A stretch of 51,262 nt of DNA from an uncultured Bacteroidota bacterium. Its GTDB lineage: Bacteria > Bacteroidota > Bacteroidia > Flavobacteriales > Flavobacteriaceae. The position numbers and the translations under genes are program-made. A model generated the notes under the pieces. That model made no database searches and was not told the DNA's origin. It saw nothing but the letters and a program-made list of their open reading frames with translations. Positions within the stretch are counted from its first letter, which is position 1. Every line of letters starts with the position of its first letter. Shown here piece after piece: positions 23,979 to 44,496 of this stretch. The stretch lies in contig CABXRK010000009.1 in the NCBI GenBank assembly GCA_902514625.1, forward strand, positions 1-51,262, read 5' to 3'.

Positions 23979-24929
23979 ATGGAATCAAATAGAAGAGATT
24001 TTTTAATTAAAGCTGGATTAGTTTCTACCGGATCATTAATTCCTAATTTAGTTATGTCTAGTGAAAAAAGCAATCGTTCTATCTTAAACCTATCAAACAA
24101 AATAAAACTTGGAGTAATAACTTATTCTTATAGAAGTCTTCCTGGAAATCTTTATAGCACGATAGGCTATTGTTTAGAAAGTGGTATTAATTCGATTGAA
24201 CTAATGTCTAATCCCGTTGAAAAATTTCTTGGGATTCCTAAAACTAGAAAATTACAAAGATCTTGGAGAGAAAACATTTCATTAGATAATTTTAAAAAGC
24301 TTAGAAAACTTTTTGATGAAGCTGGAATATCAATTTATGCATACAAACCTCATTCAATTGGTATTAATAATACTAATAAAGAAATAGAAAAATCTATTCA
24401 TGCAGCTAGTATATTGGGAGCTAAATCTGTAACTGTTGAAATTCTTGATGGAATTATTTATAAAATTCAAGATAAAAAGAAATATAATGAATACACTCAA
24501 AAATTAGGAGATATTGGAGAAAAATACAATGTTTACATTGGTTATCACAACCACACTCAAGGCACTGATACTCTTTGGGAGAATGTTTTAAGCCAGTCTG
24601 CCTACAATTCAATTAACTTAGATATTGGTCATTATATTGCTAGAGGAAGAGGTAATACTGATAAAACATTATTAAAATTTATTAAAAATAATCACGCTAG
24701 AATAACCAGTATGCATATTAAGGATAGACAAAATGATATAAATGGAGGGCATAATAAACCTTTTGGTAAGGGAGACACTCCTATTTTAGAGGTAGTTGAA
24801 TTAATTGATAAAAAAGAATATGATATCCCTCTTTCTATTGAATTAGAATATTCTATTCCTAAAAGATCAAACGCAGTAAAGGAAGTTAAAAAATGTTTAG
24901 ATTATTGTAAAAGTGCAATAAAAACCTAA
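23979..24929 (+). CDS. Tat-exported sugar phosphate isomerase/epimerase-like TIM barrel
   Basis: A 316-residue protein beginning with a twin-arginine type leader (NRRDFLIKAGLVSTGSLIP). The barrel has SGINSIELMS, AKSVTVEILDG, YIGYHNHTQGTD, NLDIGHYIARG, MHIKDRQ and LSIELEYS, the strand-end acidic and histidine residues of the xylose-isomerase-like metal site. It is a different sequence type from the barrel at 15501-16325 (longer, Tat rather than Sec signal). Family members act on keto-sugars or inositols; the reaction here is unknown. Its stop overlaps the convergent cyclase stop by four bases. Confidence 0.85.
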   Translation: MESNRRDFLIKAGLVSTGSLIPNLVMSSEKSNRSILNLSNKIKLGVITYSYRSLPGNLYSTIGYCLESGINSIELMSNPVEKFLGIPKTRKLQRSWRENISLDNFKKLRKLFDEAGISIYAYKPHSIGINNTNKEIEKSIHAASILGAKSVTVEILDGIIYKIQDKKKYNEYTQKLGDIGEKYNVYIGYHNHTQGTDTLWENVLSQSAYNSINLDIGHYIARGRGNTDKTLLKFIKNNHARITSMHIKDRQNDINGGHNKPFGKGDTPILEVVELIDKKEYDIPLSIELEYSIPKRSNAVKEVKKCLDYCKSAIKT

Positions 24930-26881
24930 GTTTTATTATTATTAAAAGACCAGTTTTTTATTGGTTTAGATTTACCCTTAAGTATAATAGGCTTACAACT
25001 TTTAAAAGCTTCTTCATTTTTTAAATTTTCATATACAGAATCTGAAATAATAATTTCTCCCGCCCTAGCAACCGAACATAATCTTGATGCTAGATTTACA
25101 TTATCTCCTATAACAGTATAATTCATCTGTTGATCTGAACCTATATTACCTGAAACCACTTTGCCATAATTAATTCCAATTCCAATTCCTAGTTCTGGGA
25201 ATCCTTTATTAGACATTTTTTTGTTAAAAACAGATAGTTCTTTGAGCATTTCAAAAGCAGAATTTACAGCATTTTGAGAGTCATTATCACTTTTTAATGG
25301 AACTCCATAAAGAACCATTAATTCATCACCAATAATTTTATCTAAAGTTCCATTATGCTTAAAAATAACATCAATCATAGCTTGAAAATAATTATTAAGA
25401 ATGTATACAACTTTAGAAGCTTCCATTTTCTCTGATAAAGATGTAAAACCTCTAATGTCAGCAAAAAGAACACACACTTCTTTTTCACTTCCTCCTAATT
25501 CTAAAAGGGTTTCATTTTTTAATAATTCATCAACTATATTTTCAGAAACATATTTTTTAAAAGTAGATTTAACTTTATTTATTCCCGATAAATCTTCAAA
25601 AGATAAAACAACTCCTGAACCTTCATTGTCATCATCAAAAACAGGTGAAATAGTTAAATTAATTTGATGTTTAGAGTCATTAAAATCGACTATATCAAAA
25701 TTACTTTCAAAAAGAACTTCTTTTTTTTGTTCTGTGTTTTCAATTAATCTTATCAGATTATTATTTTTTTCAAAAACCATGTAATAATGATTACCGATAA
25801 CGCTTTCAGAATTAAAACTGAAAACTTTCTTTGCAGATGAATTTATATATTCAATTTCACCTAAAATATTAATTTTAATAATACCTGTAGAAATAGAAGA
25901 CATTATATTATCAATTGATTTTTTTGATTCTTTAAGAGAATCTAACAGTAAAATATTATCAAAAGATAAACTTATTTTTTTTGAAATATTGTCAAAAAGC
26001 CTCAAATCAGAATCATTAAATAAAACCAATCCATCTCTAGATTCTTTATCATAAATAATTATAGATCCATGTATTTTTTTTTGACTTATAATTGGACTTG
26101 CAAGACAATTTAATTCAGAAAAATCTGATAAAGCATAATCTTTTATATTATTAATGATTTTCGATTTATTATCTGTTTTCAAATCATTCAATATTCCCTT
26201 AGAATCTCTTATCATTTTTTTATTCAAGGAATTCTCTTTTATTCCTATTGATGCTTTTATTTCATAGGTTCCAGAGTTAATATCTTTAATTAATAAAATA
26301 CCTTTAGATGCATTTAAGGTAGAGATTATATATAATAAAATATTTTGATGTAATTCGGATAAATTATCAACGTTTGAATTTAAAAGTTCAGTAATATTGA
26401 AAATAGATTCAATTTCTAGCATTATCTTCTGAAAAGAAGTTGTTCTGTTTTTTAATTTTAATTTTAAATTAAATTCTTTAAAGAAGCTATCAAAATAAAA
26501 GCTAATATGTTGAGAATAAGAGAAAAGATTCTCCTTGGCATTATTTGAAAATAAATAAAAAAAACCTACTGGTTTCTTTTTATAAAATAAAGCTGATATT
26601 ACTCCGCCTTTTTGAAAATTAGATTTTTCAAAAACATTTAAGTAATCAATGACTTTTTGATTAATTATTTTATGTGGAAATTTATTAAAAACTTTTTGAA
26701 AATTGATTTTTTCTGAATAAAAAAGATTATTCACTTCAAATTTTTTTATAAAATTTTTTGAAAAAAAATAAACTTGGAATTCAATATTGTTATTAAATAA
26801 AAAATCATTCAATAAAGAGATTTTTCCTTTAAATGATTTTTTTTTATTTAAAATAAAATTGAGTTCCGATAAATCAAACAT
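24926..26881 (-). CDS. Class III adenylate/guanylate cyclase with GAF and PAS domains
   Basis: A 651-residue soluble protein. Residues 1-165 are an unrecognised region, a GAF-like domain covers about 170-312 (NASKGILLIKDI, SPIISQKKIHGSIIIYD), a PAS-like domain 318-435 (NIMSSISTGIIKINILGEIEYIN), a short helical linker follows, and the cyclase domain spans 465-640. Catalytic residues are present: metal aspartates D475 (FADIRGF) and D519 (GDELM), K515 and T589 in the purine-selecting positions, N596 and R600 (NVNLASR). The Lys/Thr pair favours ATP and hence cAMP. The start codon overlaps the STAS stop as TAATG, implying translational coupling to that regulator. Confidence 0.92.
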   Translation of the reverse strand: MFDLSELNFILNKKKSFKGKISLLNDFLFNNNIEFQVYFFSKNFIKKFEVNNLFYSEKINFQKVFNKFPHKIINQKVIDYLNVFEKSNFQKGGVISALFYKKKPVGFFYLFSNNAKENLFSYSQHISFYFDSFFKEFNLKLKLKNRTTSFQKIMLEIESIFNITELLNSNVDNLSELHQNILLYIISTLNASKGILLIKDINSGTYEIKASIGIKENSLNKKMIRDSKGILNDLKTDNKSKIINNIKDYALSDFSELNCLASPIISQKKIHGSIIIYDKESRDGLVLFNDSDLRLFDNISKKISLSFDNILLLDSLKESKKSIDNIMSSISTGIIKINILGEIEYINSSAKKVFSFNSESVIGNHYYMVFEKNNNLIRLIENTEQKKEVLFESNFDIVDFNDSKHQINLTISPVFDDDNEGSGVVLSFEDLSGINKVKSTFKKYVSENIVDELLKNETLLELGGSEKEVCVLFADIRGFTSLSEKMEASKVVYILNNYFQAMIDVIFKHNGTLDKIIGDELMVLYGVPLKSDNDSQNAVNSAFEMLKELSVFNKKMSNKGFPELGIGIGINYGKVVSGNIGSDQQMNYTVIGDNVNLASRLCSVARAGEIIISDSVYENLKNEEAFKSCKPIILKGKSKPIKNWSFNNNKT

Positions 26882-27222
26882 TATTTTAATGCCTCTAATG
26901 CTTCTGCTTGAGAATTGAAAGTCTTACAATACTTAGTAAGTCCCATGATATTGAAAGTCTTTTCAATAATTGGTGCTAATTCACAAAATGACAATTTACC
27001 GTCTACTTCTTGAAGTTTTTCTATCAATTCAATTATAATAGAGGCTCCAATACTATTTACAATATTTGATTGACTTAGATTTAACAGAAAATTATTACTA
27101 CCATTATCTATATATTCAACAGCAATATTTTGAATTTCTTCACCCAAATCTTTATTTAAATACCCTTCAGTACTTATTACAACAAGTCCATTTGAATTAT
27201 CTACATTTAAAATTTTACTCAT
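26881..27222 (-). CDS. STAS-domain anti-sigma factor antagonist (RsbV/SpoIIAA-like)
   Basis: A 113-residue single STAS domain. The phosphorylatable serine is S57 in IVNSIGASIIIEL, aligned with the target serine of SpoIIAA/RsbV; LLNLSQSNIV precedes it as the central strand. In known systems the kinase phosphorylates this serine and a SpoIIE-type phosphatase reverses it, so the free form binds the kinase. It overlaps the kinase gene by 8 bases and the cyclase gene by 1, so all three are probably made together. Confidence 0.92.
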   Translation of the reverse strand: MSKILNVDNSNGLVVISTEGYLNKDLGEEIQNIAVEYIDNGSNNFLLNLSQSNIVNSIGASIIIELIEKLQEVDGKLSFCELAPIIEKTFNIMGLTKYCKTFNSQAEALEALK

Positions 27223-27640
27223 TTTTATCTTTATTTTTAACCATTGTTAAAGTCGTTCCAGAAGAATCTGAAACAAAATCGACATGATCCATTAATTCTT
27301 TAATTAACATTATGCCCCAACCGCGCTTTCTCTCACTACTTTTTAGTTTATTTTCAATATCTGGTATCTCAATTTCTGAAGCATCAAAACCAACACCTTG
27401 ATCAATAACTTTAACTGTTAATGATTCATCAGAAATTATAAAATGAATAAATATTTCTTCTTTTGATTCAGAGTGTTCAAAAGCATTAATACAAGCTTCA
27501 ATAATTGCCATAGAAATCTCTCCTGATTTTTCTTCTGAAAGATTCATATGTTTAGATACTACTTCCGCTGTCTGAGTTGCAATAAGTTCCATGTTTTTAA
27601 GAATAGGTAACTTTAATTCTACAGTAGGATTCTTACTCAT
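27215..27640 (-). CDS. RsbW/SpoIIAB-like serine kinase (HATPase_c_2)
   Basis: A 141-residue GHKL-fold ATP-binding protein. The N box is IIEACINAFEHS (E48, N52), the G1 box is DQGVGFD (80-86) and the G2 box is RGWGIMLIKELMD (106-118). These are the marks of anti-sigma serine kinases such as RsbW and SpoIIAB. It is the first gene of a three-gene minus-strand operon with the STAS antagonist and the cyclase. No sigma factor is encoded nearby, so the protein it holds or releases is not evident; the cyclase is one candidate. Confidence 0.92.
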   Translation of the reverse strand: MSKNPTVELKLPILKNMELIATQTAEVVSKHMNLSEEKSGEISMAIIEACINAFEHSESKEEIFIHFIISDESLTVKVIDQGVGFDASEIEIPDIENKLKSSERKRGWGIMLIKELMDHVDFVSDSSGTTLTMVKNKDKNE

Positions 27641-27688
27641 GATTTTAATTTATTTTAAATTAATCTATAATAATAAACATTTTATTTA

Positions 27689-27716
27689 AGTATTTTACCT
27701 AAAATACTAGTATTTT
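27689..27716. promoter_or_regulatory. Overlapping inverted repeats in the divergent region
   Basis: AGTATTTTA at 27689-27697 and TAAAATACT at 27700-27708 form a perfect 9-bp inverted repeat with a 2-base spacer. A third arm, AGTATTTT at 27709-27716, makes a back-to-back 16-base palindrome with the second. The site sits between the divergent kinase operon and the tandem lipoproteins and could bind a dimeric regulator. It contains only one C or G per arm, so chance in AT-rich DNA is a real alternative. Confidence 0.4.
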
Positions 27717-27719
27717 TTT

Positions 27720-27727
27720 TATTTTTG
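27720..27727 (+). promoter_or_regulatory. Candidate -7 box of the tandem lipoprotein genes
   Basis: TATTTTTG matches TAnnTTTG; the likely start of transcription near 27734 leaves a leader of about 47 bases. The inverted repeats at 27689-27716 occupy the expected -33 region, where no TTG is seen, so an activator or repressor at that site would be well placed. Confidence 0.35.
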
Positions 27728-27780
27728 ATGACTGGAGTAAATAAATAAACTTTTATATTAAATAACAAATAATATTTCTA

Positions 27781-28737
27781 ATGAAAAAATCAATTTTTGT
27801 TTTCTTTTTATCTTTCATAATTTTCTCTTGCGGAAACCCTACTTCTTCTGAAGAAAAATCTAATGAACTTAATTTAGAAGGATTCTATGAGCGGATAGGT
27901 ATTGTAGAATTAGTTAATTTTATTCCAGTTGATACAATCTTAACTACTGATGGATTTAGACAAACAAAATTTTTCTCAAAACAAGGACATATGTGGATGA
28001 ATAATGATAAGTTCACTAATAATAATTCTGATTCAATCCCTCCTTGGGGATATGGTGGTGGAATATATGGAGCATTTAAAGTTAAAAATGATTCATTATA
28101 CGAACTCGTCAAATATGGTTTTGGTCATAGGGCATCTTTTAATTCTATTCCTGTTGATACTCTTATTAAATATGGATGGGAGGTTGATTATAAGAATAAG
28201 TTAATGAAATATAAAGTTCCAATAATTGCATCAAATTCAAATGAATTTCTGCAAGTTTTTGGAAATGCAACAAATGGAACTGGACTTGCTGAGTATTATG
28301 TTAAAACCCCTGAAGGAGAATCTTCAGCTCTTGATGGTATATGGAAAAGGGAAGGAACTATTGAGCATGTTAACGAAGTTCCAGTAGATACAATATTTAA
28401 TTCAATGGATGATTTTGTTCAATATAAAATTTATTATAAAGGAAAGGCTATGTTTTTTACAAGAGATTTCACTGCTGATGACCCCTCTAAAGGAAATTTC
28501 TATGGAGGATCTTTCTACGGTAATTTTACTTATAAAGATAATGTCTTAACTGAAAGAATTGACTATGCTATGGCAGGTTTTGAAGAATTTCATAAAAATT
28601 TACCAGATAAAGATGAAAACGGTACATTTATTTCCTTTGATGTAGATCTAAAAGAAAACTCTTATAGTCAAAAATGGGGTCCAAATCAAAACGAGGGATA
28701 TTTAAATACAAGTGAATATTTTGTTAAAATAAAATAA
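27781..28737 (+). CDS. Tandem-repeat lipoprotein A, lipocalin-like repeats, unknown function
   Basis: A 318-residue predicted lipoprotein (lipobox FIIFSC, C17). The mature part contains two copies of a unit of about 140 residues. The first begins LEGFYERIGIVELVNFIPVDTI (about 31-52) and the second LDGIWKREGTIEHVNEVPVDTI (about 182-203); each continues with an aromatic Gly-rich stretch such as YGGGIYGAF or YGGSFYGNF followed by KNDSL or KDNVL. The G-x-W/Y plus beta pattern suggests a lipocalin-like barrel in each half, which is inference. A paralogue follows after only four bases. Position between partner-switching operons hints at an envelope sensor or output, unproven. Confidence 0.75.
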   Translation: MKKSIFVFFLSFIIFSCGNPTSSEEKSNELNLEGFYERIGIVELVNFIPVDTILTTDGFRQTKFFSKQGHMWMNNDKFTNNNSDSIPPWGYGGGIYGAFKVKNDSLYELVKYGFGHRASFNSIPVDTLIKYGWEVDYKNKLMKYKVPIIASNSNEFLQVFGNATNGTGLAEYYVKTPEGESSALDGIWKREGTIEHVNEVPVDTIFNSMDDFVQYKIYYKGKAMFFTRDFTADDPSKGNFYGGSFYGNFTYKDNVLTERIDYAMAGFEEFHKNLPDKDENGTFISFDVDLKENSYSQKWGPNQNEGYLNTSEYFVKIK

Positions 28738-28741
28738 AAAA

Positions 28742-29749
28742 ATGAAAAAACTATTACTCTTATTATCAACAATAATATTAATCTCCTGTGGAGAAAATAA
28801 AGTTTCTACAAAAAAAATAGAAAAAGAAAATAACTTTGAAGGTTTCTATGATAGAATTGGTACTATTCAATACGTTAAAGGTGTTGCAGTAGATACAGTT
28901 TTTTATAAAGACATTAAAGATTCCGAAGGAAAAATACCCAGACAAGTGAAGGCATATGTCGATGGTAAATTTTGTTGGATTAGTAATGACCCTACTCCTA
29001 AAACAGCCAAAGACAATGGTATTAAAATGCCTTGGAAGAGTGGTGCTGGAGGTTATGGTTCTTATAATTATTCAGCAAGCACTAATTATTCTCCTATGAA
29101 TGAATATATGACAAATATGATTGGTAATGGTTTAATGTGGGGTCCTAGTTTTGAGCAAAGAGGAGCTGTTAGAGATTCTATTTTAAAAAATAATTCTTTT
29201 AAGTGGGAATTTACTTCAACATTTGATGGTAATATATATAACCATAAATGGCTCCAGCCAGATTCTGTGACTACTATATATTCTGAATTAAATAAAAAAA
29301 TTGAATCATCTGCTGAACAAACTATTTTAGATGGAGTTTGGAAACATATTGCAAATGTTCGTTATGTTAATAATATACCTGTTGACACTATAGGTTTACC
29401 TGATGGACTTGACGATCATAAACTTTATCATAAAGGAAATGTTATGGTTAATTATGATTTCACTCTAGCTAAAGAAGGAGATCAAAATTTTGGAGGTGCT
29501 GGATTAATAGGTAAATTTACTTATAAAGATGGTGTATTAACCGAGTTCTTTGAAATGGGAACAGGAAATTGGACTCCGCCAGACACTAAAGTATGGTCTG
29601 ATGGGCAAAGTGCTGACATTGATATGATTGATAATGACACCTTTATTCAAATTAACAGGTATGCTACTGAAGATAATGGAGATGGTACATTTACATTTGT
29701 TGAAGCAAAAAAAGAAAAAAACGGACTTTTACACGTCAGAGTAAAATAA
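28742..29749 (+). CDS. Tandem-repeat lipoprotein B, paralogue of the preceding gene
   Basis: A 335-residue predicted lipoprotein (lipobox ILISC, C16) with the same two-unit layout as its neighbour: FEGFYDRIGTIQYVKGVAVDTV near residue 31 and LDGVWKHIANVRYVNNIPVDTI near 198, followed by FGGAGLIGKFTYKDGVL. The first unit is longer, with a Ser/Tyr/Asn-rich insertion (GYGSYNYSASTNYSPMNEYM). The C-terminal unit is closest in text to the second unit of the neighbour, so gene duplication probably followed duplication within the gene. It starts four bases after the neighbour, so the two are surely co-transcribed. Function unknown. Confidence 0.75.
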   Translation: MKKLLLLLSTIILISCGENKVSTKKIEKENNFEGFYDRIGTIQYVKGVAVDTVFYKDIKDSEGKIPRQVKAYVDGKFCWISNDPTPKTAKDNGIKMPWKSGAGGYGSYNYSASTNYSPMNEYMTNMIGNGLMWGPSFEQRGAVRDSILKNNSFKWEFTSTFDGNIYNHKWLQPDSVTTIYSELNKKIESSAEQTILDGVWKHIANVRYVNNIPVDTIGLPDGLDDHKLYHKGNVMVNYDFTLAKEGDQNFGGAGLIGKFTYKDGVLTEFFEMGTGNWTPPDTKVWSDGQSADIDMIDNDTFIQINRYATEDNGDGTFTFVEAKKEKNGLLHVRVK

Positions 29750-29779
29750 AAATGTTAGTAAATCTAACTAAAGTATTAG

Positions 29780-29809
29780 TTGATTAAAAAAATTAAAGTA
29801 ATATATTTG
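29780..29809 (+). promoter_or_regulatory. Promoter of the small Ser/Asn/Lys-rich lipoprotein
   Basis: TTG (29780-29782), 19 bases, then TATATTTG (29802-29809) fit the flavobacterial consensus TTG-N17-23-TAnnTTTG exactly. Transcription near 29816 would leave about ten bases before the ATG at 29826, so this gene can be expressed apart from the two lipoproteins upstream. Confidence 0.6.
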
Positions 29810-29825
29810 AAATATTAGAAAGTTT

Positions 29826-30170
29826 ATGTTAAAAAAAATATTTTTATTTTCCTTTACAATTTTATTATACAACTGTTCTAATGATGGCACAGAAGTTTCT
29901 AATAAGGTCTCTTTTGATTCAAGTGCCTTTAAAAAAGCTAAGTCAAGTGATTTTAATTCTGGTTATGGTGGTTCTGTAGTTAGCAATGATTCAAAATCAA
30001 ACAAAAACACTAGAGCTAATTACTCTAGTTATGGTAACTACTCCTCTACGAAAAAAAATAAAAGTAAAAAATCAGAAAACACTTCAAGTAAATCCCAAAA
30101 TTCTTCAAAAGTTAATTACGCTTCTGAAGCAAGAAAAAACGCTACTTATTCTGCTTACAGCAATTATTAA
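29826..30170 (+). CDS. Small low-complexity Ser/Asn/Lys-rich lipoprotein
   Basis: A 114-residue predicted lipoprotein (lipobox LLYNC, C17). The mature 97 residues are mostly Ser, Asn, Lys, Tyr and Gly with no recognisable fold: SGYGGSVVSNDSKSNKN, then SSYGNYSSTKKNKSKKSEN, ending in ATYSAYSNY. It is predicted to be disordered and strongly basic. The repeated short S-x-Y and Y-S-x-Y pieces recall surface-exposed tethers or adhesive low-complexity proteins, but no function is known. It has its own good promoter and its stop directly abuts the stop of the convergent SpoIIE phosphatase. Confidence 0.7.
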   Translation: MLKKIFLFSFTILLYNCSNDGTEVSNKVSFDSSAFKKAKSSDFNSGYGGSVVSNDSKSNKNTRANYSSYGNYSSTKKNKSKKSENTSSKSQNSSKVNYASEARKNATYSAYSNY

Positions 30171-33100
30171 TTATTTCCTTTTTACAACTACAAATGTAAC
30201 ATCATCATCTGGAATTATTCCATCCATCCAATTATCTAATTCTTGTAATAATAAAGTCTTTATTTCATCTGCAGATTTTGAAATATTCTTTAATATAAAC
30301 TCTCTAATCCTTTCATAATCATACATTTCATTATATTTATTTACTGCCTCAGGCAATCCATCAGATAACATAATTAAAACATCATCTTTTTTAAATTTCA
30401 TATTAAGTAAATCGTATTTTTCATTTCTTAATCCTCCTAAAGGAATCCCTTGAATTAAAATTTCTTCACATTCTTTTGTAGAAGCATTATAAAAATAAAC
30501 TGGCGGCATAGCTGCTGAGCTTAAAGTTAATTTGTCCTTTGAAATTTTAGAAATTACTAAACTCATTTTAATTCTTTTAAGATCTATCTTTTTAACTATG
30601 TTATTCAATTCCTCTAGTATTTTATTAACTGGAAGAACAGGTAAACTATTTAAAGCAGATTTAATAATTGAAACCATCATGCCTGATGTGGTTCCATGAC
30701 CTGTAGCATCACCACACACAGCAAAAACATCTCCATTTTCAGATTCAAAGAAATCATAATAATCACCTCCCACTTCAGTCGATGTTATTAATCCAGCAGA
30801 AATTTCAAAAAATTTAGATTTAGGAAAAACCTTTGGAAGCATATTTTGCTGCATTTTTTTAGCTTCTTCCAATTCAGCAGCTTTTCTTTTATTATCAGCC
30901 TTAGCTAGAGATTTTTTTGCCTGATATTTAATTAATAACCATATACTTATTATAAAAATAATTATATATAAAATCCAAGCAAGATAAGTCCGATAAAATG
31001 GAGGCTTAATTTTAAATTGATATGATAAGATTTCACTTTCATTACCATTTGTATCTTTAGCTTGAAAGAGAAAATTATATGACCCCAGATCTAAATTTGT
31101 ATATGATCTTTCTGAATTAGCTGACCACCCACTCCATTGCTCATCCTGACCTTCAAGAAAAACTCTATATTGATTATTTTCTTCCTTATTATATGAAGGA
31201 AATGCTAAATTAAATTTCATATTCCTGCTTATATCATATGAAATATCTTCAATAGAAAAATTGTGTAAATCTGCTCCTGTATAAATTTCTTTTATAAGTG
31301 GTTTTGGAATATCATTGAAACTATTCCTTTTTAATTTAGGTGACCATCTAATTATTTTAGAATCTTTAGATCCTAACCATATTGATTCAATGTTATTTTT
31401 AGTTTCCGCATAAAAAGATCCCTTTAATTCAGTAAAATCAATTTTTCCATAATTATATTTTTCCTTAATTACATATGAAGAATCACTAAATTTAACCTCT
31501 AAAAGACCATTAGTTGTCAAAAACCAATTGTTTCTTGTTTTTTTATTTACTGTAGTAAATTGATCAACACCGTTTATAATAGTATAGGGATTAAAATTAT
31601 TAATTCCATTTTCAAAAATTTGATCAATTTTTTTGTTTAATGCTAATAATTTATTGTCTGAAGTAAATCTATATATAATCCCATCAGTTAAATCAAAAGC
31701 AAGTAATCCAACTCCCGATTCAAAAACACATAATTTAGGTTCCATAAAATAATCTTCTAAATCACTATTTAAAAAAACTGTTCTTGGGAGTTTAAGTGAT
31801 TTAAATAAACTGTCATTTTTTGGAATTAAAAGTCTTTCAAAATTCAATTTTCCTTTATTGTTATAACTTCCAATAAAAGAACCTTCATCATCTGAGGATT
31901 CAATAAATAAAACTCCAGGTTTAATTTCTCTGAAACCACTAACTCCAACGTCAGAAGCCGGTTTATAGGAACTGATTTTTTTTAATATGCCTTTATTATT
32001 TCTTTTCAAAAAAACTATTCCATCAGAAGGATGAGAAATGATAAGTAATTCTTCTGATAAAGCACTTTGGATAGGTAGTTGAACTCCCCTATCAGAAAGA
32101 ATATTCATGATCTTTCCCTGGTTAAATTCAGTCAAACCAAAATTGTTTGCAGAAACTATTGCATTATTAAATAAATTAAAATCTCTAACATAGTCATCAA
32201 CGCCTAACTCAAGAATAGATGCATCTTCAAGAGCGTTCGAATTTGATTCAACAGAAAAAATATCTTCAGTGGTTGAAAAAAATATCTTATCATTTAACCT
32301 CTTTATTTTTGTAACAACACCTTTTATACCCTCAGATCTATCAAATGTAGTTAAAGAGTTATCAAAATTAATTTTTGCTGCAGTCAAAAGATTTGTTACA
32401 AATAAATCATCGTTGGCGTCAATAAATAAATCAGTAATCTGACTAGACAAAAGACCATCAGATTCATCAATTAAATTAATTATTTCTTGTTGTTGATTTA
32501 AAATTAAAATTCCATCATTTGAAATAATTGGAATTGAACCATCTGAAAAAAATGATAACTCAGAATTATATGTAACATTCGATTCAATCAACCATTTATC
32601 TAGTTTCTTATTTTTATTTTTAATAATTTTCTTTCCATTGAATTTATAAGCGCCATTAGTACTGCTTAAAATAGAAATATTTTGATTGTCAGAGTTAAAC
32701 ATAACTTCAATCCTATTATTAGAATAAATCTCTGAACCATTAACGAATTGAAAATCTTCGTTTCTATATTCTAATAAACCAACTCCCCATTGTCTGATAA
32801 ATAATCTATCTCCAACTTTAAATAAAAAATGTAATTTTCCAGGTGAATCGATACTTCCCTCATAATCTGAAAATTTCCAAATTTTATCAAATTTATTTCC
32901 GTCCCATCTAAAAATTTTTTCAGGAGTAGTAAAATATATTTTATTATTAAATTCCTTAGTACCAATAAATTGTTGTCGCTTATTATCTATAGAATCTGGA
33001 ATTTGATCTAGTAAAGAATTATATTGCTTAGATCCAAACTCGTTATTTTGCAAAAAACCTAAAACAGATCTCCCTGAAACAAAAATCTTTCCAAAAGAAG

Positions 33101-33407
33101 ATTCTATTATATTTCTTACATCCTCACTTCCAACTTCATTTTCAACAATACCTTTAATTTGAATTCTATTAACATTTTTGCCATCATATTCTATAATTCC
33201 ATTAAAAGTCCCATAATAAACCAAATTATCTTTGCTAGATTTAATTACAGATCTAATTGCTTCAGGTCTATCTAAAAATACATTATCATAATTTTTGATC
33301 ACATAATTTCCTAACTCTTCATATAATGAATTGGGGTTTTTAGAATCTTGTCCAAAAACAAAACTAAATGAGATAATAACGAAAAAAAGTATTAATCTAG
33401 TAAACAT
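30171..33407 (-). CDS. Membrane sensor phosphatase: periplasmic propeller, Y_Y_Y, TM, SpoIIE/PP2C
   Basis: A 1078-residue one-protein receptor. A signal peptide ends near FGQ (residue 20). Residues 21 to about 720 carry two-component-regulator-propeller-like repeats (DGIIEYDGKNV, DGSIPIISNDGILIL). A Y_Y_Y domain follows (YRVFLEGQDEQWSGWS, YTNLDLGSYNFLFQAKD), one membrane helix at about 807-828, a short coiled coil, and a cytoplasmic SpoIIE phosphatase at 850-1078. The metal aspartates are D882 (GGDYYDFF), D900 (CGDATGHG), D1016 (SDGLPEA) and D1068/D1069. The architecture parallels hybrid two-component sensors with the kinase replaced. Its likely target is a phospho-STAS protein such as the one at 26881-27222. 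Confidence 0.92.
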   Translation of the reverse strand: MFTRLILFFVIISFSFVFGQDSKNPNSLYEELGNYVIKNYDNVFLDRPEAIRSVIKSSKDNLVYYGTFNGIIEYDGKNVNRIQIKGIVENEVGSEDVRNIIESSFGKIFVSGRSVLGFLQNNEFGSKQYNSLLDQIPDSIDNKRQQFIGTKEFNNKIYFTTPEKIFRWDGNKFDKIWKFSDYEGSIDSPGKLHFLFKVGDRLFIRQWGVGLLEYRNEDFQFVNGSEIYSNNRIEVMFNSDNQNISILSSTNGAYKFNGKKIIKNKNKKLDKWLIESNVTYNSELSFFSDGSIPIISNDGILILNQQQEIINLIDESDGLLSSQITDLFIDANDDLFVTNLLTAAKINFDNSLTTFDRSEGIKGVVTKIKRLNDKIFFSTTEDIFSVESNSNALEDASILELGVDDYVRDFNLFNNAIVSANNFGLTEFNQGKIMNILSDRGVQLPIQSALSEELLIISHPSDGIVFLKRNNKGILKKISSYKPASDVGVSGFREIKPGVLFIESSDDEGSFIGSYNNKGKLNFERLLIPKNDSLFKSLKLPRTVFLNSDLEDYFMEPKLCVFESGVGLLAFDLTDGIIYRFTSDNKLLALNKKIDQIFENGINNFNPYTIINGVDQFTTVNKKTRNNWFLTTNGLLEVKFSDSSYVIKEKYNYGKIDFTELKGSFYAETKNNIESIWLGSKDSKIIRWSPKLKRNSFNDIPKPLIKEIYTGADLHNFSIEDISYDISRNMKFNLAFPSYNKEENNQYRVFLEGQDEQWSGWSANSERSYTNLDLGSYNFLFQAKDTNGNESEILSYQFKIKPPFYRTYLAWILYIIIFIISIWLLIKYQAKKSLAKADNKRKAAELEEAKKMQQNMLPKVFPKSKFFEISAGLITSTEVGGDYYDFFESENGDVFAVCGDATGHGTTSGMMVSIIKSALNSLPVLPVNKILEELNNIVKKIDLKRIKMSLVISKISKDKLTLSSAAMPPVYFYNASTKECEEILIQGIPLGGLRNEKYDLLNMKFKKDDVLIMLSDGLPEAVNKYNEMYDYERIREFILKNISKSADEIKTLLLQELDNWMDGIIPDDDVTFVVVKRK

Positions 33408-33519: not shown

Positions 33520-34293
33520 ATGAAAAAATATCCATTAAAAATATTATTTGTTTTTTATTCTATTAATTTATTTGGTCAAGTAATCATAGACACTGAATCC
33601 AGTTTAAAAAAAATTGATTCAACATTTCATGTGTTCGGAGAATTTTCAGGATTATCTACAAAGGGAAATATAAAAATGAGCATTTTAAATTCAAGTTTGA
33701 TTCTTGGGCAAAAAGTTGATAAAAATCTATATAGATTGTCTTTTCAAAATTCAATGACAAAGTTTAATGGGACTCTGTTTGACAATAACATAAGTGGTCA
33801 ATTTAGATATAACTATAATTATAAGTCTAATAACTCTCTCTTTAGTTTTATTCAACTTGGAAAGAGTTTAAGAGAATCAATTAATTCAAGAAATTTATAC
33901 GGTTTAGGATTAAGAAATAGAATCCTTACAAAAGAAACTAATTATTTAGATTTTGCATATGGACCTTTCTATGAAATAGAAAAATATCCTTCTTATATTT
34001 ATTCAAAAATACCTTATCCTAAATTCACAAAATATAACTGGAGGTTTTCTTTAAACTCATTTTCTTATATAAAAATAACCAATCAAGTTTCATTTCTCTC
34101 AACTATCTATTCTCAATTAAACCTAAATGATTTAAGAGATATTCGCTTATATCTTAATTTATATTTGTCTTACGCAATTACTAAAAACATCTCTGTTTTT
34201 CTTAGATATACTAGCAGATCATCTTCAATTCAATATGTTAAAGGAAATGTAAATGATTCAAGTATTTTATATGGCACTAAAATCTCTTTATAA
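33520..34293 (+). CDS. Outer-membrane beta-barrel-like protein (DUF481-like)
   Basis: A 257-residue protein with a signal peptide cleaved near FGQ (about residue 20). The rest alternates hydrophobic and polar residues in about ten strand-like segments (GQFRYNYNYK, NLYGLGLRNRILTKETNYLDFAYGPFYEIEKYP, RLYLNLYLSYAITKNISVFLRYTSR) and ends in a strand, ILYGTKISL. This resembles DUF481 salt-stress-type barrels. It carries many Tyr, Asn and Ser residues. There is no enzymatic motif. The next gene, the PQQ dehydrogenase, begins 58 bases later, so the two may be co-transcribed, but a joint function is not established. Confidence 0.65.
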   Translation: MKKYPLKILFVFYSINLFGQVIIDTESSLKKIDSTFHVFGEFSGLSTKGNIKMSILNSSLILGQKVDKNLYRLSFQNSMTKFNGTLFDNNISGQFRYNYNYKSNNSLFSFIQLGKSLRESINSRNLYGLGLRNRILTKETNYLDFAYGPFYEIEKYPSYIYSKIPYPKFTKYNWRFSLNSFSYIKITNQVSFLSTIYSQLNLNDLRDIRLYLNLYLSYAITKNISVFLRYTSRSSSIQYVKGNVNDSSILYGTKISL

Positions 34294-34351
34294 AAGAAAA
34301 TAAATTGATGTAATTATCTTTTAATTAAGTATATTAAATAAAAAATATTTG

Positions 34352-36523
34352 ATGTATCCAAAAGTTTCACTGAAATTGTTAACCATTTTTCTTTTATTCG
34401 GTTGTGAATCTATCCATAAAGAAACGGTTGATTTTATAAACTGGTCTGAATATTTAGGTGATAAATCAAGATCTCATTATTCATCATTAAATCAAATAAA
34501 TATTTCTAATGTTAAAAATATTAAAAAAGCATGGTCTTATAGTTCTGGAGATGTCGGGAAAAATAATAGGACTCAAATTCAGTGTAGTCCAATAGTAATT
34601 GACACTATTTTGTATGGAACAAATCCTCAATTAAAACTATTTGCAATTAATGCTAAAACTGGAAAAGAATTATGGAAATTTAATCCTGATGACAAAGTTT
34701 CCCCAGGATGGGGAGTAAATAGGGGTGTTATATATTGGGATGATAATGAAAATGGAAGAATACTTTATACTTCAGGAAAATACATCTATTCTATAGATGC
34801 AAAAAGTGGAAAAATAGAAAGTTCTTTTGGGGAAAATGGAAAAATCGATTTACGTAAGAATCTTGGAAGACCCTATGAAACAATTGTTGCTATTTCTAAT
34901 ACTCCTGGCGTTATTTTTAATGGCATTCTAATTCAAGGTACTAGAGTCCATGAAGGTCCTGGTGGATCCCCTGGTCATATAAGGGCATACGATTTAAGAA
35001 CCGGGGAATTAGTTTGGAGATTTAATACTATACCAAATCCTGGAGAATTTGGATATGATACATGGCCTAAAGATGCTTGGAAATATATTGGAGGTGCAAA
35101 TTCATGGTCTGGAATGACTCTTGATGAAGAGTCAGGAATAGTCTATATTCCAACTGGATCAGCTTCATATGATTTTTATGGTGGAAATAGAAAAGGAAAA
35201 AATTTATTTGCAAATTGCCTTATTGCTTTAGATGCTAAATCGGGTAAAAGAATCTGGCATTATCAATTTGTACATCATGATCTATGGGATAGAGATATTC
35301 CTGCTCCACCAAATTTAGTTGAAATAAATAAAGAAGGTAAAGTTATAAAAGCAATAGTTCAAATAACAAAATCCGGACATGTATTTGTTTTCAATAGAAA
35401 AAATGGTCAACATATATTTCCAGTTAAAGAATTTCCATTTCCTAAATCAGAACTTATAGGAGAAGAAGCATGGCCAACCCAACCTCTTCCTACTAAAATA
35501 CCCCCTTTCGCTAGACAAAAATTCACTAAGGATCTAATAAATGATATGTTTCCTAATTCAAAAGCATTATTGGCTTGGTCTCCATTGCAAAAGGATAAGG
35601 TGTCTGATAAAACTGTTGAAGAAGTATGGTTGACTTTAAATTCCTTAGGTCAGTTTCAACCACCTAGTGACAAAATAGCAACAATTACTTTTCCTGGATT
35701 AGATGGCGGAGGAGAATGGGGAGGAGCGGGATATGATCCCGAAAGTGGAATGTTATATATTAATTCTAATGAAATGCCTTGGGTGTCAAAAGCTTTCAAA
35801 TTAGACAAAATAAAAGATAAAAACGTTCAAAAATTCGGGAAATCAATTTACTTACAACAATGTTCTAGATGCCATGGACCTGAACTTCAAGGCATTTCTA
35901 ATCTTCCAGATTTAAAAAATTTAAAAAATAGATTTAATCAAAAAGAATTAGCATCAATAATTAAAAAAGGTAAAGGTTCAATGATGCCTCTACCTCACTT
36001 AAATAAATCTCAAATTAATGCTATTTCTTCTTACCTATTAGATGATGAAACTATAGAAATTGATCAATCATCTTTTAACGATCTTGATCCAAATGCACTA
36101 CCTTACTCAATAAAATATTATGGAAGATTTATGGATGAATATGGATATCCAGCCATTAAGCCTCCTTGGGGGACACTAAATGCAATTGATTTAAATAAGG
36201 GTGAATTAGCTTGGAGTGTTCCTTTAGGTGAATATGATAGTCTAACAAAAAAGGGATTCCCTAAAACTGGAACTGAAAATTATGGTGGACCAATTGTTAC
36301 TTCAGGGGGATTGATTTTTATTGGAGCAACAAATGATGAATACTTCAGAGCATTCAATAAAAAAAATGGTGAAGAATTATGGAAAACTAAACTTCCTGCA
36401 GGAGGATATGCAACTCCAATAACATATCAAATAGATGACAAACAATTCGTTGTAATTGCATGTGGAGGTGGGAAAATGGGAACTAAATCCGGAGACTCAT
36501 ATATAGCATATAGCCTGAATTAA
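34352..36523 (+). CDS. PQQ-dependent dehydrogenase with fused cytochrome c domain, lipoprotein
   Basis: A 723-residue quinohaemoprotein oxidising an alcohol or sugar outside the cytoplasm. It starts at ATG 34352, just after a less likely TTG. The lipobox LLFGC marks C18. Propeller and PQQ features include KELWKFNPDDK, GSPGHIRAYDLRTGELVWRFNTIP, WSGMTLDEESGIVYIPTGSAS, YQFVHHDLWDRDIPAPPNL and GGEWGGAGYDPESGMLYINSNE. A haem-binding CSRCH (C504, C507, H508) sits in a cytochrome c domain of about 490-570 inserted before the last propeller blades (TPITYQIDDKQFVVIACGGG). Electrons could pass to an azurin or cytochrome. The substrate cannot be read. It converges on the FG-GAP gene at 36569. Confidence 0.92.
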   Translation: MYPKVSLKLLTIFLLFGCESIHKETVDFINWSEYLGDKSRSHYSSLNQINISNVKNIKKAWSYSSGDVGKNNRTQIQCSPIVIDTILYGTNPQLKLFAINAKTGKELWKFNPDDKVSPGWGVNRGVIYWDDNENGRILYTSGKYIYSIDAKSGKIESSFGENGKIDLRKNLGRPYETIVAISNTPGVIFNGILIQGTRVHEGPGGSPGHIRAYDLRTGELVWRFNTIPNPGEFGYDTWPKDAWKYIGGANSWSGMTLDEESGIVYIPTGSASYDFYGGNRKGKNLFANCLIALDAKSGKRIWHYQFVHHDLWDRDIPAPPNLVEINKEGKVIKAIVQITKSGHVFVFNRKNGQHIFPVKEFPFPKSELIGEEAWPTQPLPTKIPPFARQKFTKDLINDMFPNSKALLAWSPLQKDKVSDKTVEEVWLTLNSLGQFQPPSDKIATITFPGLDGGGEWGGAGYDPESGMLYINSNEMPWVSKAFKLDKIKDKNVQKFGKSIYLQQCSRCHGPELQGISNLPDLKNLKNRFNQKELASIIKKGKGSMMPLPHLNKSQINAISSYLLDDETIEIDQSSFNDLDPNALPYSIKYYGRFMDEYGYPAIKPPWGTLNAIDLNKGELAWSVPLGEYDSLTKKGFPKTGTENYGGPIVTSGGLIFIGATNDEYFRAFNKKNGEELWKTKLPAGGYATPITYQIDDKQFVVIACGGGKMGTKSGDSYIAYSLN

Positions 36524-36568: not shown

Positions 36569-39500
36569 TTAAAAAGTTATGGTTCTAGTTTTATTACCAT
36601 CTTTTGAAAAAAAATCAATTGAAATCATATTCTCCATGACCAAAACTTTTTCAGATGATTGAGATTGAAACGATTGATTCCCATGTCTATATATCCTCTT
36701 TTGCTTATCACTTTTAAAAGTAATTAAACAACTTATTTCATGATCATTCCAATCAACAATTCTTTTGGATGAAGTAAATGTATTTTTATAAATTTTCAAC
36801 GAATCATTATTCTGAGAAAATATATTAATAAAGCCCTTATTTTTTATAAATAGCTTAACACTGCTTTTTGCATCTCCAGGAATTAATAAATTAGTTTGTT
36901 CTAATTCTAAAACATTAAATTTCATATTACCATTATTTAATAAAACTACTCCATTAAGAGCATCAGATCTTCCCTGGTTTGGCTCTAAGCCAAAATTATT
37001 TCCAATAAAAATAAAATCCTCAAATTGATCATTATTGATATTACTTTTTAGGATACCATAAATAGAAGAAAACTGTAATTTGTTAGGAAGTTCGATAATT
37101 TTAAATTTATTATTTCCTAAATTTTCAACCATAGCAGTTTTAAGGAAATTAGCTTCTAAATTAATAGATCCATTCAAATCAATTTTACTTAAAACTTCTT
37201 CTTTAGTGGCCTCACCATATTTTCCATGAGAATTGTAGAATTTTCTCAAATAGGGATATTGCTTAACAACATCTTCCCAAACATGATAGATATAGTTATT
37301 CTTTTTATTTCCAATACTATCTCTTACATAAAAAGATAAAAATGATTCTAAAGAGCTATTTGAGTCAAAATCTTTTGCAATTATAGAAATTGGTTCATTA
37401 AAATTAGCTTTAAACAATGTGTTTGTTCCAAAATTACCTACTAGATAGTCTAAATCACCATCATTATCAATGTCAGAAGAAAGTATACTATTCCACCAAC
37501 CAAAATATTTGTCTATACCTGAATTATTAACTTCATAAAGCTTCCCGTTATTATTTTCAAAAAATCTAAGATTACTCCATTCAGATACAATAATTAAATC
37601 TACTAAGTGATCACCATTAAAATCAGTCCAAATAGCATCATTTACAATTCCTATAGGCTTTTTAATAATTATTTTTTCAGTAGAATCAACAAATCCAATA
37701 TTATCACCTTCACTAATGTTCTCAATTAAATAAGAAGAATCAGAAAGCGGATAATTCGAGGGTTTTATTCCCGCTCCAACAAATAAATCAATGTCACCAT
37801 CATTGTCAAAATCTGCTCCTTTAACTGCAGACCCATTATTTCTATTAGGAGGTAGCTTGTCTGAATGATTAGAAAATTCTCCATGTCCATCATTAACCCA
37901 TAGTCCATCTTTATAATATTTACTTTTAAAAGGGAATTGGGCTGACCCTCTAACAATATAAATATCATTATCACCATCATTCTCAATATCAAAAATAAAT
38001 ATCCCAGAATCTTCTTCTAATAATTCTGAATCGCTTTTTAGATTGATTTGTTTCTTCTTAAACTTTCCATTTTCATTTTGAAAAAAAATAGTTTCTTTAA
38101 AATAAGAATTCCCTCCAATTATTAGGTCTTCCAAATCATCACCATTTAAATCTCCAACCGCTAATGAAGGTCCATTTTGTGAAAATTTCTTTGGAATTGT
38201 TGTTTGAAGATCGAAATCATCAAAATCATAATCAAAATCATTATAAAGAATCATAGTCTCATTAGAAACATCATCAAAAATTTTCTTTTTATAGATTTGA
38301 GTCCTTTTACTATTCTTTAACTTATTTTTTTTAATATAATTGACTTGATTAATTTTTACTTTAAATAAAGTTTGAGTGTTTTGATTCGCCCATCTAATTT
38401 GAATAGAATCAATTTTATTATTTTCACCTAATCCAAAATGTAAAATATTTTCTGATTGAGACAAATAACCTCTTTGATTTATTAATACTTGCTTTTGCTT
38501 TAAATTATTGTAATAAATGGTTACAGAACTTCCATATATTACGTTATCGTCATCAGAGCCAACTAATTTAAATCTAATGTGATTATTTTTAATTTCCTTG
38601 TTGTTAGATAAATTCTCAAGAATACTTGCTTTATCATTTACATTGTTTATTACTATATCTAAATCTCCATCATTATCTAAATCTGCATATGCAGCACCAT
38701 TACTATGACTTGGTTGCTCTATACCCCATGAATCTGTCATATCAATAAAAGTTAGATCTTTGTTGTTTTTAAAAACAAAATTTTTAGTTTTAACCTCAGG
38801 TAAAATTTTTAACAACTGTTTGGTTCTAAAGAAACTTCCCGAATTATTTCTGAAATCACTAAAATCTTTATCTAAAATATCTTTAGGAAATCCGTTAGCA
38901 ATAAAGAGATCATTCCATCCATCATTATCTAAATCTGCAAAAAATGATGACCAACTCCAATCTGTCTCACTTATACCAGACAACATTCCAATTTCTGAAA
39001 ATAATGGTAATTTTGTGTTTGGATTTAACCCCATATTTAATTGAAAAACATTTCTAAAATATTGATAATGATAATTAAATTTTTTTGTGATTTGTTCTTT
39101 TGAATAATTAGTTTGTCTTTGAAATAATTTTTTCCTTTTATTATAAAATGGTTGCATTTCAGAAACAAACAAATCTAATTTTCCATCATTATTTATGTCT
39201 GAAAGATCTGCCCCCATAGAACTTAAACTAAAATGTTTAAATATCTTACCTGATGAATCAGAAAATGTTTTATCTCTATTGTTGATATATAATATGTCAT
39301 TACTTAAAAAATCATTTCCTACGTATATATCTTGCCAGCCATCCAAATTAAAATCACTAATTAATACACTATTGGTTTGACCTTGAAATATAATTCCGGC
39401 TTTTTTTGAGACATCTTCAAAGACAGGATGTTTTAAACTGTCATTCCATCTATTTTCAAAAATTTTATCTACACTTATCGGGTTTTTATCTTTTGACATA

Positions 39501-40120
39501 TCACGATAAACATTTGGATTCATATCTTTTATCTGACTAACACCAATAAAAACATCTAGATCCCCATCATTGTCATAATCAAAAAATTGAGCGTTTGATG
39601 AATATGAGCTATCAGATAAATTATATTCTTCAGACATTTCTTTAAAAACTGGTATTAATTTATCATTTATTCCTTGGTTAATGAATAATAAATTTTTTCT
39701 AAAAGAACTATTTTTTCTTAATGTATTACAAACATAGATATCTAAAAGATCATCGTTATTTATATCAATTATATTAACACCAGATGACCATAATAATTTA
39801 TTTTTTTTTGAAAATTTTGATTCAATGGAAACATCCTCAAATGTTAAATCACCTTTATTTAAATAAATCGCATTATCAACTTGATTACCTGAAAAAACAA
39901 TGTCAGGCAAACTATCATTATTAAGATCACCTATGGCAACTCCTGCTCCATTGTAAAAATATTCATAATTTAATATGTTAACAGAATCATTTTCTTTAAC
40001 AATGTTTGAAAATTTAATATTTGTTTTACCCTCTGGAAGAGCTTTTAATAGTTTATTATTGGAGACTTCACATGAAATAGCAAGTATAAAAAAAATTAAA
40101 ACATTAAATATTTTATACAT
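36569..40120 (-). CDS. Giant FG-GAP/VCBS repeat protein with ASPIC/UnbV domain, lipoprotein
   Basis: A 1183-residue predicted lipoprotein (lipobox LAISC, C17). Two sets of FG-GAP propeller blades carry Ca-binding-like loops such as DLNNDSLPDIVF, DYDNDGDLDVFIG, DLDNDGWNDLFIA and DNDGDLDYLVG. Between them an ASPIC/UnbV domain spans about 513-598 (HIRFKLVG, GENNKIDSIQIRWANQ). Such proteins are common beside SusC/SusD genes in marine Flavobacteriia and are thought to bind ligands at the surface; no catalytic motif is visible. It lies 9 bases downstream of a sulfatase and ends the susC-to-36569 run. It is AT-rich with many Asp/Asn codons, consistent with local base composition. Confidence 0.9.
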   Translation of the reverse strand: MYKIFNVLIFFILAISCEVSNNKLLKALPEGKTNIKFSNIVKENDSVNILNYEYFYNGAGVAIGDLNNDSLPDIVFSGNQVDNAIYLNKGDLTFEDVSIESKFSKKNKLLWSSGVNIIDINNDDLLDIYVCNTLRKNSSFRKNLLFINQGINDKLIPVFKEMSEEYNLSDSSYSSNAQFFDYDNDGDLDVFIGVSQIKDMNPNVYRDMSKDKNPISVDKIFENRWNDSLKHPVFEDVSKKAGIIFQGQTNSVLISDFNLDGWQDIYVGNDFLSNDILYINNRDKTFSDSSGKIFKHFSLSSMGADLSDINNDGKLDLFVSEMQPFYNKRKKLFQRQTNYSKEQITKKFNYHYQYFRNVFQLNMGLNPNTKLPLFSEIGMLSGISETDWSWSSFFADLDNDGWNDLFIANGFPKDILDKDFSDFRNNSGSFFRTKQLLKILPEVKTKNFVFKNNKDLTFIDMTDSWGIEQPSHSNGAAYADLDNDGDLDIVINNVNDKASILENLSNNKEIKNNHIRFKLVGSDDDNVIYGSSVTIYYNNLKQKQVLINQRGYLSQSENILHFGLGENNKIDSIQIRWANQNTQTLFKVKINQVNYIKKNKLKNSKRTQIYKKKIFDDVSNETMILYNDFDYDFDDFDLQTTIPKKFSQNGPSLAVGDLNGDDLEDLIIGGNSYFKETIFFQNENGKFKKKQINLKSDSELLEEDSGIFIFDIENDGDNDIYIVRGSAQFPFKSKYYKDGLWVNDGHGEFSNHSDKLPPNRNNGSAVKGADFDNDGDIDLFVGAGIKPSNYPLSDSSYLIENISEGDNIGFVDSTEKIIIKKPIGIVNDAIWTDFNGDHLVDLIIVSEWSNLRFFENNNGKLYEVNNSGIDKYFGWWNSILSSDIDNDGDLDYLVGNFGTNTLFKANFNEPISIIAKDFDSNSSLESFLSFYVRDSIGNKKNNYIYHVWEDVVKQYPYLRKFYNSHGKYGEATKEEVLSKIDLNGSINLEANFLKTAMVENLGNNKFKIIELPNKLQFSSIYGILKSNINNDQFEDFIFIGNNFGLEPNQGRSDALNGVVLLNNGNMKFNVLELEQTNLLIPGDAKSSVKLFIKNKGFINIFSQNNDSLKIYKNTFTSSKRIVDWNDHEISCLITFKSDKQKRIYRHGNQSFQSQSSEKVLVMENMISIDFFSKDGNKTRTITF

Positions 40121-40129
40121 AAACAGAGT

Positions 40130-42941: not shown

Positions 42942-42964
42942 TTTTTTTTTTTTTGAAATTTAAT

Positions 42965-43001
42965 AAAAAACCTCCCAAAAAAAATTTATTGGGAGGTTTT
43001 T
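42965..43001 (-). terminator. Hairpin terminator or attenuator between susD and sulfatases
   Basis: A perfect inverted repeat, AAAAACCTCCCAA (42966-42978) and TTGGGAGGTTTTT (42989-43001), with a 10-base A/T loop. T-rich sides on both strands allow bidirectional action. Read on the minus strand it lies after susD and before the sulfatase start, so it may reduce transcription from susC/susD into the sulfatase genes. Confidence 0.75.
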
Positions 43002-43053
43002 CTCTAAATCTAAACAAAATTAACTCAAATCCAACTCTATTGTAAAAACTAAA

Positions 43054-44484: not shown

Positions 44485-44496
44485 GATTTTTTTATT

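Follow-up and report, generated by a model that had tools for sequence, protein, structure and literature searches.

A stretch of 51,262 nucleotides from an uncultured Flavobacteriaceae bacterium (contig CABXRK010000009.1 of assembly GCA_902514625.1; hereafter the window) likely encodes a closed partner-switching circuit in which a serine kinase and a STAS protein have a class III adenylate-type cyclase, and not a sigma factor, as their output, and for which we infer both the interactions and the direction of control. Read along the minus strand, the kinase gene is followed by the STAS gene and then the cyclase gene (24926-27640; Table 1), with the kinase and STAS genes overlapping by 8 bases and the STAS and cyclase genes by 1 base (TAATG), and a gene for a transmembrane SpoIIE phosphatase is found 2,530 bases beyond the kinase start. 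This layout agrees with an earlier interpretation of the letters made without database searches (the sequence-only reading), which had described the trio as one operon with the phosphatase 2.5 kb away. What the switch regulates is probably a second messenger, with transcription not under its direct control.

The gene arrangement is not a product of chance, as it recurs in the window and in seven other genomes, a small set of marine bacteria in which it is conserved. We compared the window's own genome (G000; 1.25 Mb in 60 contigs, 63% complete) with one of the same genus (G001, 90% complete), two of the same family (G084, 66%; G102, 95%), three records of uncultured marine-type Bacteroidetes (G198-G200, loci L002-L004), and G508, which lies outside the class and was found via its kinase, the other six having been found via the cyclase. 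Absences carry some weight only in G001 and G102. The order kinase-STAS-cyclase was kept in 8/8, so that what the sequence-only reading had singled out in one genome proved to be conserved. With starts placed at the first start codon, the kinase-STAS overlaps ranged from 1 to 17 bases and the STAS-cyclase spacing from -1 to 44 bases across the eight genomes.

Upon searching 198 relatives, we found the full-length cyclase, besides the window's own genome, in G001, G084, and G102 (and, beyond the relatives, in G198-G200 and G508), while a strong kinase match (>270 bits) occurred in 4 of the 198, exactly the four with the full-length cyclase; other kinase-profile matches listed among the relatives stayed below 30 bits. 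The catalytic domain alone is common, with some match in 79/198 relatives, and no kinase or STAS match was seen at those catalytic-domain-only loci that were scored. Neither the kinase nor the full-length cyclase was matched in two further genomes from the genus of the window, G002 (63% complete) and G003 (91%). Searches for kinase, STAS, SpoIIE, sigma, and cyclic nucleotide-binding (CNB) domains covered seven genomes (G000, G001, G084, G102, and G198-G200, with G508 left out), each of which contained one PF13581 kinase over the cut-off, one small STAS protein, and one SpoIIE protein, all inside the island (7/7 in each case). A second kinase match in G102 fell below the cut-off, and the other STAS matches lay in frames of 551-617 residues, a size suggestive of SulP transporters. 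Among the genomes with the module, the cyclase search covered G000, G001 (6/7 candidates scored), G084, and G102, with one match in each. Because of this exclusive co-occurrence and the single-copy status of each component, we favor gating of the cyclase by the switch.

The kinase gave an HATPase_c_2 match of 87 bits in Pfam, and its profile matched RsbW (6m36, E 3.1e-10) and SpoIIAB in the PDB; the NCBIfam RsbW model reached 59.7 bits, under its 145-bit cut-off. Residues E48, N52, D80, G82, G84, G107, and G109 were invariant in the seven kinases aligned, and they belong to the N-box and glycine motifs. The window's STAS protein matched its Pfam family at 40 bits and, as a profile, SpoIIAA (1th8_B, E 3.7e-10), with S57 aligned to the SpoIIAA serine known to be phosphorylated, which bears out the choice of S57 in the sequence-only reading. 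This serine was kept in 8/8 within a motif, SNIVNSIGAS, that is invariant in the seven proteins aligned and reads SKIVNSIGAS in G508; around it, VNSIG stands in the STAS protein versus MDSSG in SpoIIAA. Judged from these alignments, the pair is a GHKL serine kinase with a single-domain STAS protein carrying the conserved serine, as expected of an RsbW/SpoIIAB-type switch.

For the cyclase, Pfam reported Guanylate_cyc at 114 bits, PAS over the cut-off, and GAF_2 at 17.8 bits against a cut-off of 28.6. An AlphaFold model was weak (mean predicted local distance difference test, pLDDT, 64.9), and from it we used only the domain order and secondary structure, which agree with a GAF-like region at residues 1-150 and a GAF domain at 174-310, followed by PAS (332-430) and the catalytic domain (466-647); Foldseek on this model supported the catalytic domain, its longest alignments (6fht) having a query TM-score of ~0.26. 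Class III cyclases rely on two metal-binding aspartates, an adenine-type lysine with a threonine or aspartate, and an asparagine and arginine that act on the transition state. The sequence-only reading had called the catalytic residues intact, and D475, D519, K515, T589, N596, and R600 were indeed present in the window's protein and kept in 8/8 cyclases. The K/T pair is as in PaCyaB (3r5g), an adenylyl cyclase of Pseudomonas aeruginosa, whereas the guanylyl cyclase Cya2 (2w01) has E and G at these sites. On these residues the active site is of the adenylate-type class III kind, with ATP as the presumed substrate. No GGDEF family appeared among the Pfam matches at E 0.01, and an NCBIfam match named diguanylate cyclase covered the PAS region only.

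Conservation along the cyclase was uneven, with mean pairwise identities among seven proteins of 28% for the first GAF region (GAF1), 53% for the second (GAF2), 62% for PAS, 83% for the pre-catalytic linker, and 70% for the catalytic domain. As GAF1 is the least conserved part, a docking site for the switch is more likely to lie in the conserved portion from GAF2 through the PAS-catalytic linker, which is only a hint, given that the conservation of the linker may reflect catalysis alone. Activation of the cyclase by its own product via GAF2 is not claimed, since the NKFDE-like motif is preserved only in part, with D/N, K, F, and D retained in 8/8 and E replaced.

The phosphatase matched SpoIIE at 100 bits and Y_Y_Y over the cut-off in Pfam, and it consists of an N-terminal hydrophobic stretch, a sensor-like ectodomain with Y_Y_Y, a transmembrane segment at about residues 808-826, and the SpoIIE domain at 891-1077. 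A profile of five aligned phosphatases matched periplasmic sensor domains of hybrid two-component systems (HTCS) in the PDB (3v9f, E 4.6e-36; 4a2l). The sequence-only reading had invoked a propeller that reads an outside signal; the profile matches favor the sensing of an outside signal, and the propeller itself was not found by Pfam in the window's protein. A structure model of the phosphatase was poor (mean pLDDT 45.0) and was not used. The phosphatase gene lies on the kinase side of the trio in the window, G001, and G084, and tail to tail with the cyclase gene, with a 4-base overlap, in G102, G198, G199, G200, and G508. The phosphatase is part of the kinase/STAS/cyclase set, with the STAS protein as its putative substrate.

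Weaker kinase matches occurred in many of 395 genomes of the phylum, and we fetched 20 kinase loci, made up of the G508 locus plus the 19 ranking next (89-146 bits for the kinase), which come from other families. At 17 of these 19 outgroup loci the kinase is followed by a SpoIIE protein of 531-540 residues (with a shorter reading in L155, while L145 differs), a small STAS protein was scored at 16/19, and scoring of the genes up to 7 kb from the kinase gave no cyclase at any of them. The arrangement across L146-L163 is kinase, STAS protein, SpoIIE protein of ~535 residues, and usually a larger SpoIIE protein, again with no cyclase nearby; in L146 the large protein next in line carries Reg_prop, Y_Y_Y, and SpoIIE in Pfam. 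A kinase tree of 35 rows separated the 8 cyclase-linked from the 17 phosphatase-linked kinases, with support of 98/99 for the branch around the phosphatase-linked group and 89/4 for the cyclase-linked fork, the branches being long and the rest unsure. Based on the 19 cyclase-free loci and this split, the cyclase-containing form seems to be one arm of a switch that is more widespread in Bacteroidota, the other arm having phosphatases and no cyclase. A docking domain shared between the cyclase and the ~535-residue phosphatase in the third slot was considered and rejected: hhalign of the two N-terminal halves gave 96% probability, but a profile of the N-terminal part of the cyclase picked up the third-slot protein in just 3/21 outgroup genomes (G230, G322, and G419; ~20-21 bits), where other proteins outscored it (33-38 bits), and these few, low matches look like general GAF similarity. 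Pfam showed only SpoIIE in the two third-slot proteins tested.

We suggest that, in the resting state, the kinase would phosphorylate the STAS protein on S57, by analogy with RsbW/SpoIIAB systems. An outside signal at the HTCS-like ectodomain would activate the cytoplasmic SpoIIE phosphatase and lead to dephosphorylation of the STAS protein, which would then swap partners and alter cyclase activity, either through direct contact with the cyclase, on the pattern of SiaC-SiaD and HsbA-HsbD, or by drawing the kinase away from it. We lean slightly toward direct action of the STAS protein.

The SiaABCD system includes a phosphatase (SiaA) and a kinase (SiaB). As in a SiaABCD-like switch, the cyclase of the present set is encoded together with the phosphatase, kinase, and switch protein. 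A phosphorylation switch acts there, as proposed here, on a nucleotide cyclase, and SiaC binds the stalk of SiaD and activates this cyclase directly in P. aeruginosa (excerpt of PMC8457831). SiaD is a diguanylate cyclase, whereas the present set has a class III adenylate-type enzyme, an RsbW-like kinase, and a SpoIIAA-like STAS protein. The anti-anti-sigma protein HsbA of P. aeruginosa interacts with the cyclase HsbD (excerpt of PMC5085249), which differs in being a diguanylate cyclase in a pathway fed by HptB; we saw no such phosphorelay here. Partner switches on diguanylate cyclases are thus already known (SiaABCD, HsbA-HsbD); in the open-access literature searched, judged mostly from listings, we found no class III adenylate cyclase as the target of a kinase/STAS switch. 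An RsbT-type kinase likewise acts on a downstream diguanylate cyclase in Moorella (excerpt of PMC4976288), but as part of a stressosome, the RsbR/RsbS pair of which we did not find in the seven genomes because each has one small STAS protein. The Bacillus switches RsbU/RsbV/RsbW and SpoIIE/SpoIIAA/SpoIIAB (excerpt of PMC8256260) comprise the same three protein families with the same serine position, and differ in that no SigB/SigF-type sigma was found here and a cyclase gene occupies that place. By analogy, the set would work like a SiaABCD-type cyclase switch assembled from RsbW/SpoIIAA-type parts.

Regarding the readers of cyclic AMP (cAMP), the CNB domain PF00027 was not found in 5/7 genomes (G000, G001, G198, G199, and G200), and CRP was rejected as a general effector for this reason; G102 had two matches over the cut-off and G084 one below it. 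By contrast, a membrane protein of 177-179 residues is encoded in the islands of G084, G102, G199, and G200, with PF18967 (PycTM) over the cut-off in 3/3 of these proteins tested and matches to PADLOC PycTM models of up to 65.6 bits. In G102, G199, and G200 the PycTM gene points the same way as the phosphatase gene and is separated from it only by the gene for a TPR-type protein, the gaps being 5 to 54 bases. In G084 the PycTM gene shares 4 bases with the end of the cyclase gene. In G198 it is found at the end of a contig, accompanied by the same lipoprotein-like and DUF481 neighbors, and in G001 it lies 18 kb from the phosphatase. PycTM was found in 0/14 of the phosphatase-type outgroup genomes searched (of 19), and its profile gave no credible match in the PDB (best E 0.15).

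Elsewhere in the relatives, at least 21/27 PycTM genes have one of the listed cyclase matches no more than 5 kb away (a tally that omits the matches in G001, G003, G084, and G102 and a weak one in G181), and a cyclase open reading frame was seen at 15/15 of the loci fetched from the 21 and at 0/3 of those fetched from the other six. All 15 of these PycTM-adjacent cyclases carry a K paired with T or D at the sites that select the base (L192 is cut short, and L190 lacks the Arg), compared with 1/11 cyclases without a nearby PycTM match (the best other matches, not a random sample); we take the K/D pair to be adenylate-type. At L186-L199 and L203, the relatives' PycTM genes adjoin sensory cyclases, either of ~346 residues and response-regulator type or of ~605-655 residues, one of the latter carrying TPR repeats in Pfam.

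Tentatively, and with less confidence than we place in the switch itself, we propose a chain from the HTCS-like phosphatase via the kinase/STAS switch to the adenylate-type cyclase and on to PycTM as a cAMP-gated membrane effector. As known PycTM effectors answer cyclic pyrimidines (excerpt of PMC11224242), cAMP is a presumptive ligand. The PycTM step is further weakened by three observations: the only match in G508 is weak (32 bits) and lies on a contig other than that of the module, the search of the window's own genome (63% complete) gave no PycTM, and G003 has the gene (L185) in a setting that resembles that of G001 but gave no kinase or full-length cyclase match. The sequence-only reading missed this candidate effector because it is not in the window.

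Several points count against a cyclase as the output. The kinase and STAS protein could act on an unlinked target, and, because their mean identities of 79% and 70% far exceed that of the cyclase GAF1, they may, as far as sequence conservation tells, have another constrained partner. The 19 loci without a cyclase indicate that a kinase-STAS pair needs no cyclase in general, which tempers the sequence-only reading's proposal that the pair gates cAMP production, favored as this is by exclusive co-occurrence and single-copy parts. Moreover, most of the partner switches described so far have a sigma factor as their end point, that of Chlamydia being linked to the housekeeping sigma (excerpt of PMC8256260). 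All this would suit a switch that still serves a transcription target elsewhere (RpoD, an extracytoplasmic function (ECF) sigma, or another regulator) with the cyclase as a co-expressed parallel branch. We nevertheless regard such a target as unlikely, because a strong kinase match never occurred without this cyclase in the 198 relatives, the three genes are closely spaced or overlapping in 8/8, and each genome has but one sigma with Sigma70_r3 (7/7). This sigma lies outside the island, on another contig or, in G102, >400 kb away, and we take it as RpoD-sized given its frame of ~290 residues. The claim of the sequence-only reading that no sigma factor is encoded nearby held for the eight window proteins of the module stretch given to Pfam, and a cognate SigB/SigF-type sigma was likewise not found in the seven genomes by the Sigma70_r3 search, in which ECF sigmas were not surveyed and which leaves RpoD as a conceivable target.

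The cyclase has two GAF-like domains and a PAS domain, and it might be regulated independently by their ligands, with the phosphatase merely setting the STAS state and the operon serving dosage coordination only. CyaB1 has the domain order GAF-GAF-PAS-catalytic, and we know of no partner switch on CyaB2. The latter, a cyanobacterial enzyme with similar tandem GAF domains ahead of a class III catalytic domain, differs in being activated by cAMP itself, which binds its GAF domains (excerpt of PMC4411481). With the incomplete motif in GAF2, and as dosage alone hardly explains exclusive co-occurrence and close gene coupling, we find independent regulation quite improbable. A phage-defense system akin to Pycsar, in which phage would trigger the cyclase through the partner switch and PycTM would be the effector, is more doubtful still. 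Such systems combine a class III cyclase with a PycTM-type membrane effector (excerpt of PMC11224242), which resembles what several of the window's relatives encode, and PADLOC PycC models match the cyclase at up to 92.7 bits, to which the PF18967 and PycTM matches of the island proteins can be added. However, the PycC matches fall within the catalytic domain and are perhaps only a signal of class III cyclases at large, and the periplasmic sensor suggests an outside signal. Relative to the second metal Asp, PycC of clade E carries R at -4 and Q at -2, and PycC of clade D carries K at -2 and F at +3 (excerpt of PMC11224242), whereas here K515 and I517 occupy -4 and -2 and M522 occupies +3, a common F two before the first Asp being the one residue shared in the comparison with clades D and E. 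The adenylate-type active site, the sensory input domains, the partner switch, and the absence of a PycTM match from the window's own genome likewise set the two apart. We accordingly file the set neither under sigma-releasing systems, as no such sigma was found, nor, in view of the clade D/E active-site residues, under Pycsar, and retain the cyclase as the likely output of the switch.

Table 1. Features of the partner-switching island in the window, with strand and the basis of each assignment
Feature	Position	Strand	Basis
RsbW/SpoIIAB-type serine kinase gene, HATPase_c_2, 141 aa	27215..27640	-	Pfam, profile vs PDB
Single-domain STAS protein gene, anti-anti-sigma type, 113 aa	26881..27222	-	Pfam, profile vs PDB
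S57 codon of STAS gene, expected phosphorylation site	27052..27054	-	Alignment
Class III cyclase gene, 651 aa, GAF-like/GAF/PAS/catalytic domain	24926..26881	-	Pfam, structure model, alignment
Cyclase catalytic domain PF00211 with D475, K515, D519, T589, N596, R600	24962..25483	-	
Cyclase PAS domain, residues 332-432	25586..25888	-	Pfam
Cyclase second GAF domain, residues 173-304	25970..26365	-	Below Pfam cut-off; agrees with weak structure model
Transmembrane SpoIIE phosphatase gene	30171..33407	-	Pfam, profile vs PDB
SpoIIE (PP2C-type) phosphatase domain	30177..30737	-	Pfam
DUF481 outer-membrane type protein gene	33520..34293	+	
Two tandem lipoprotein-like genes, one unnamed family, 318 + 335 aa	27781..29749	+	

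Among the neighboring genes, the DUF481 gene also lies near the module in G001, G102, G199, and G200, and relatives of the lipoprotein-like family lie near it in G001, G084, G199, and G200. This family, with members in the window and at loci L037, L039, L003, and L004, gave no Pfam match in the proteins tested. Close to the island, positions 36569-47583 on the minus strand contain a SusC/SusD pair, two sulfatases, and an FG-GAP/UnbV protein, which looks like a region for the utilization of sulfated polysaccharides, and positions 34349-36523 on the plus strand encode a quinoprotein (pyrroloquinoline quinone propeller) that also carries a cytochrome c domain at residues 497-564.

For several partner-switch STAS proteins, such as SypA and HmpV, targets are not known (excerpt of PMC8256260). 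Here, the candidate target of the STAS protein is an enzyme of the same operon with a simple readout, and each component of the switch is single-copy, so that gating of a cAMP cyclase by a Ser-phosphorylated STAS protein can be tested in vitro. If the proposed chain is true, an output part of the phage-defense type is used for ordinary environmental signaling, in bacteria most of which show no CNB-domain cAMP receptor. PycTM, if it is the effector, would then link phage-defense effectors with everyday cAMP signaling and supply a candidate cAMP receptor where the search for CNB-domain proteins came up empty. Across this family, where PycTM genes are more widely paired with adenylate-type cyclases, PycTM would then serve as a general effector of cAMP.

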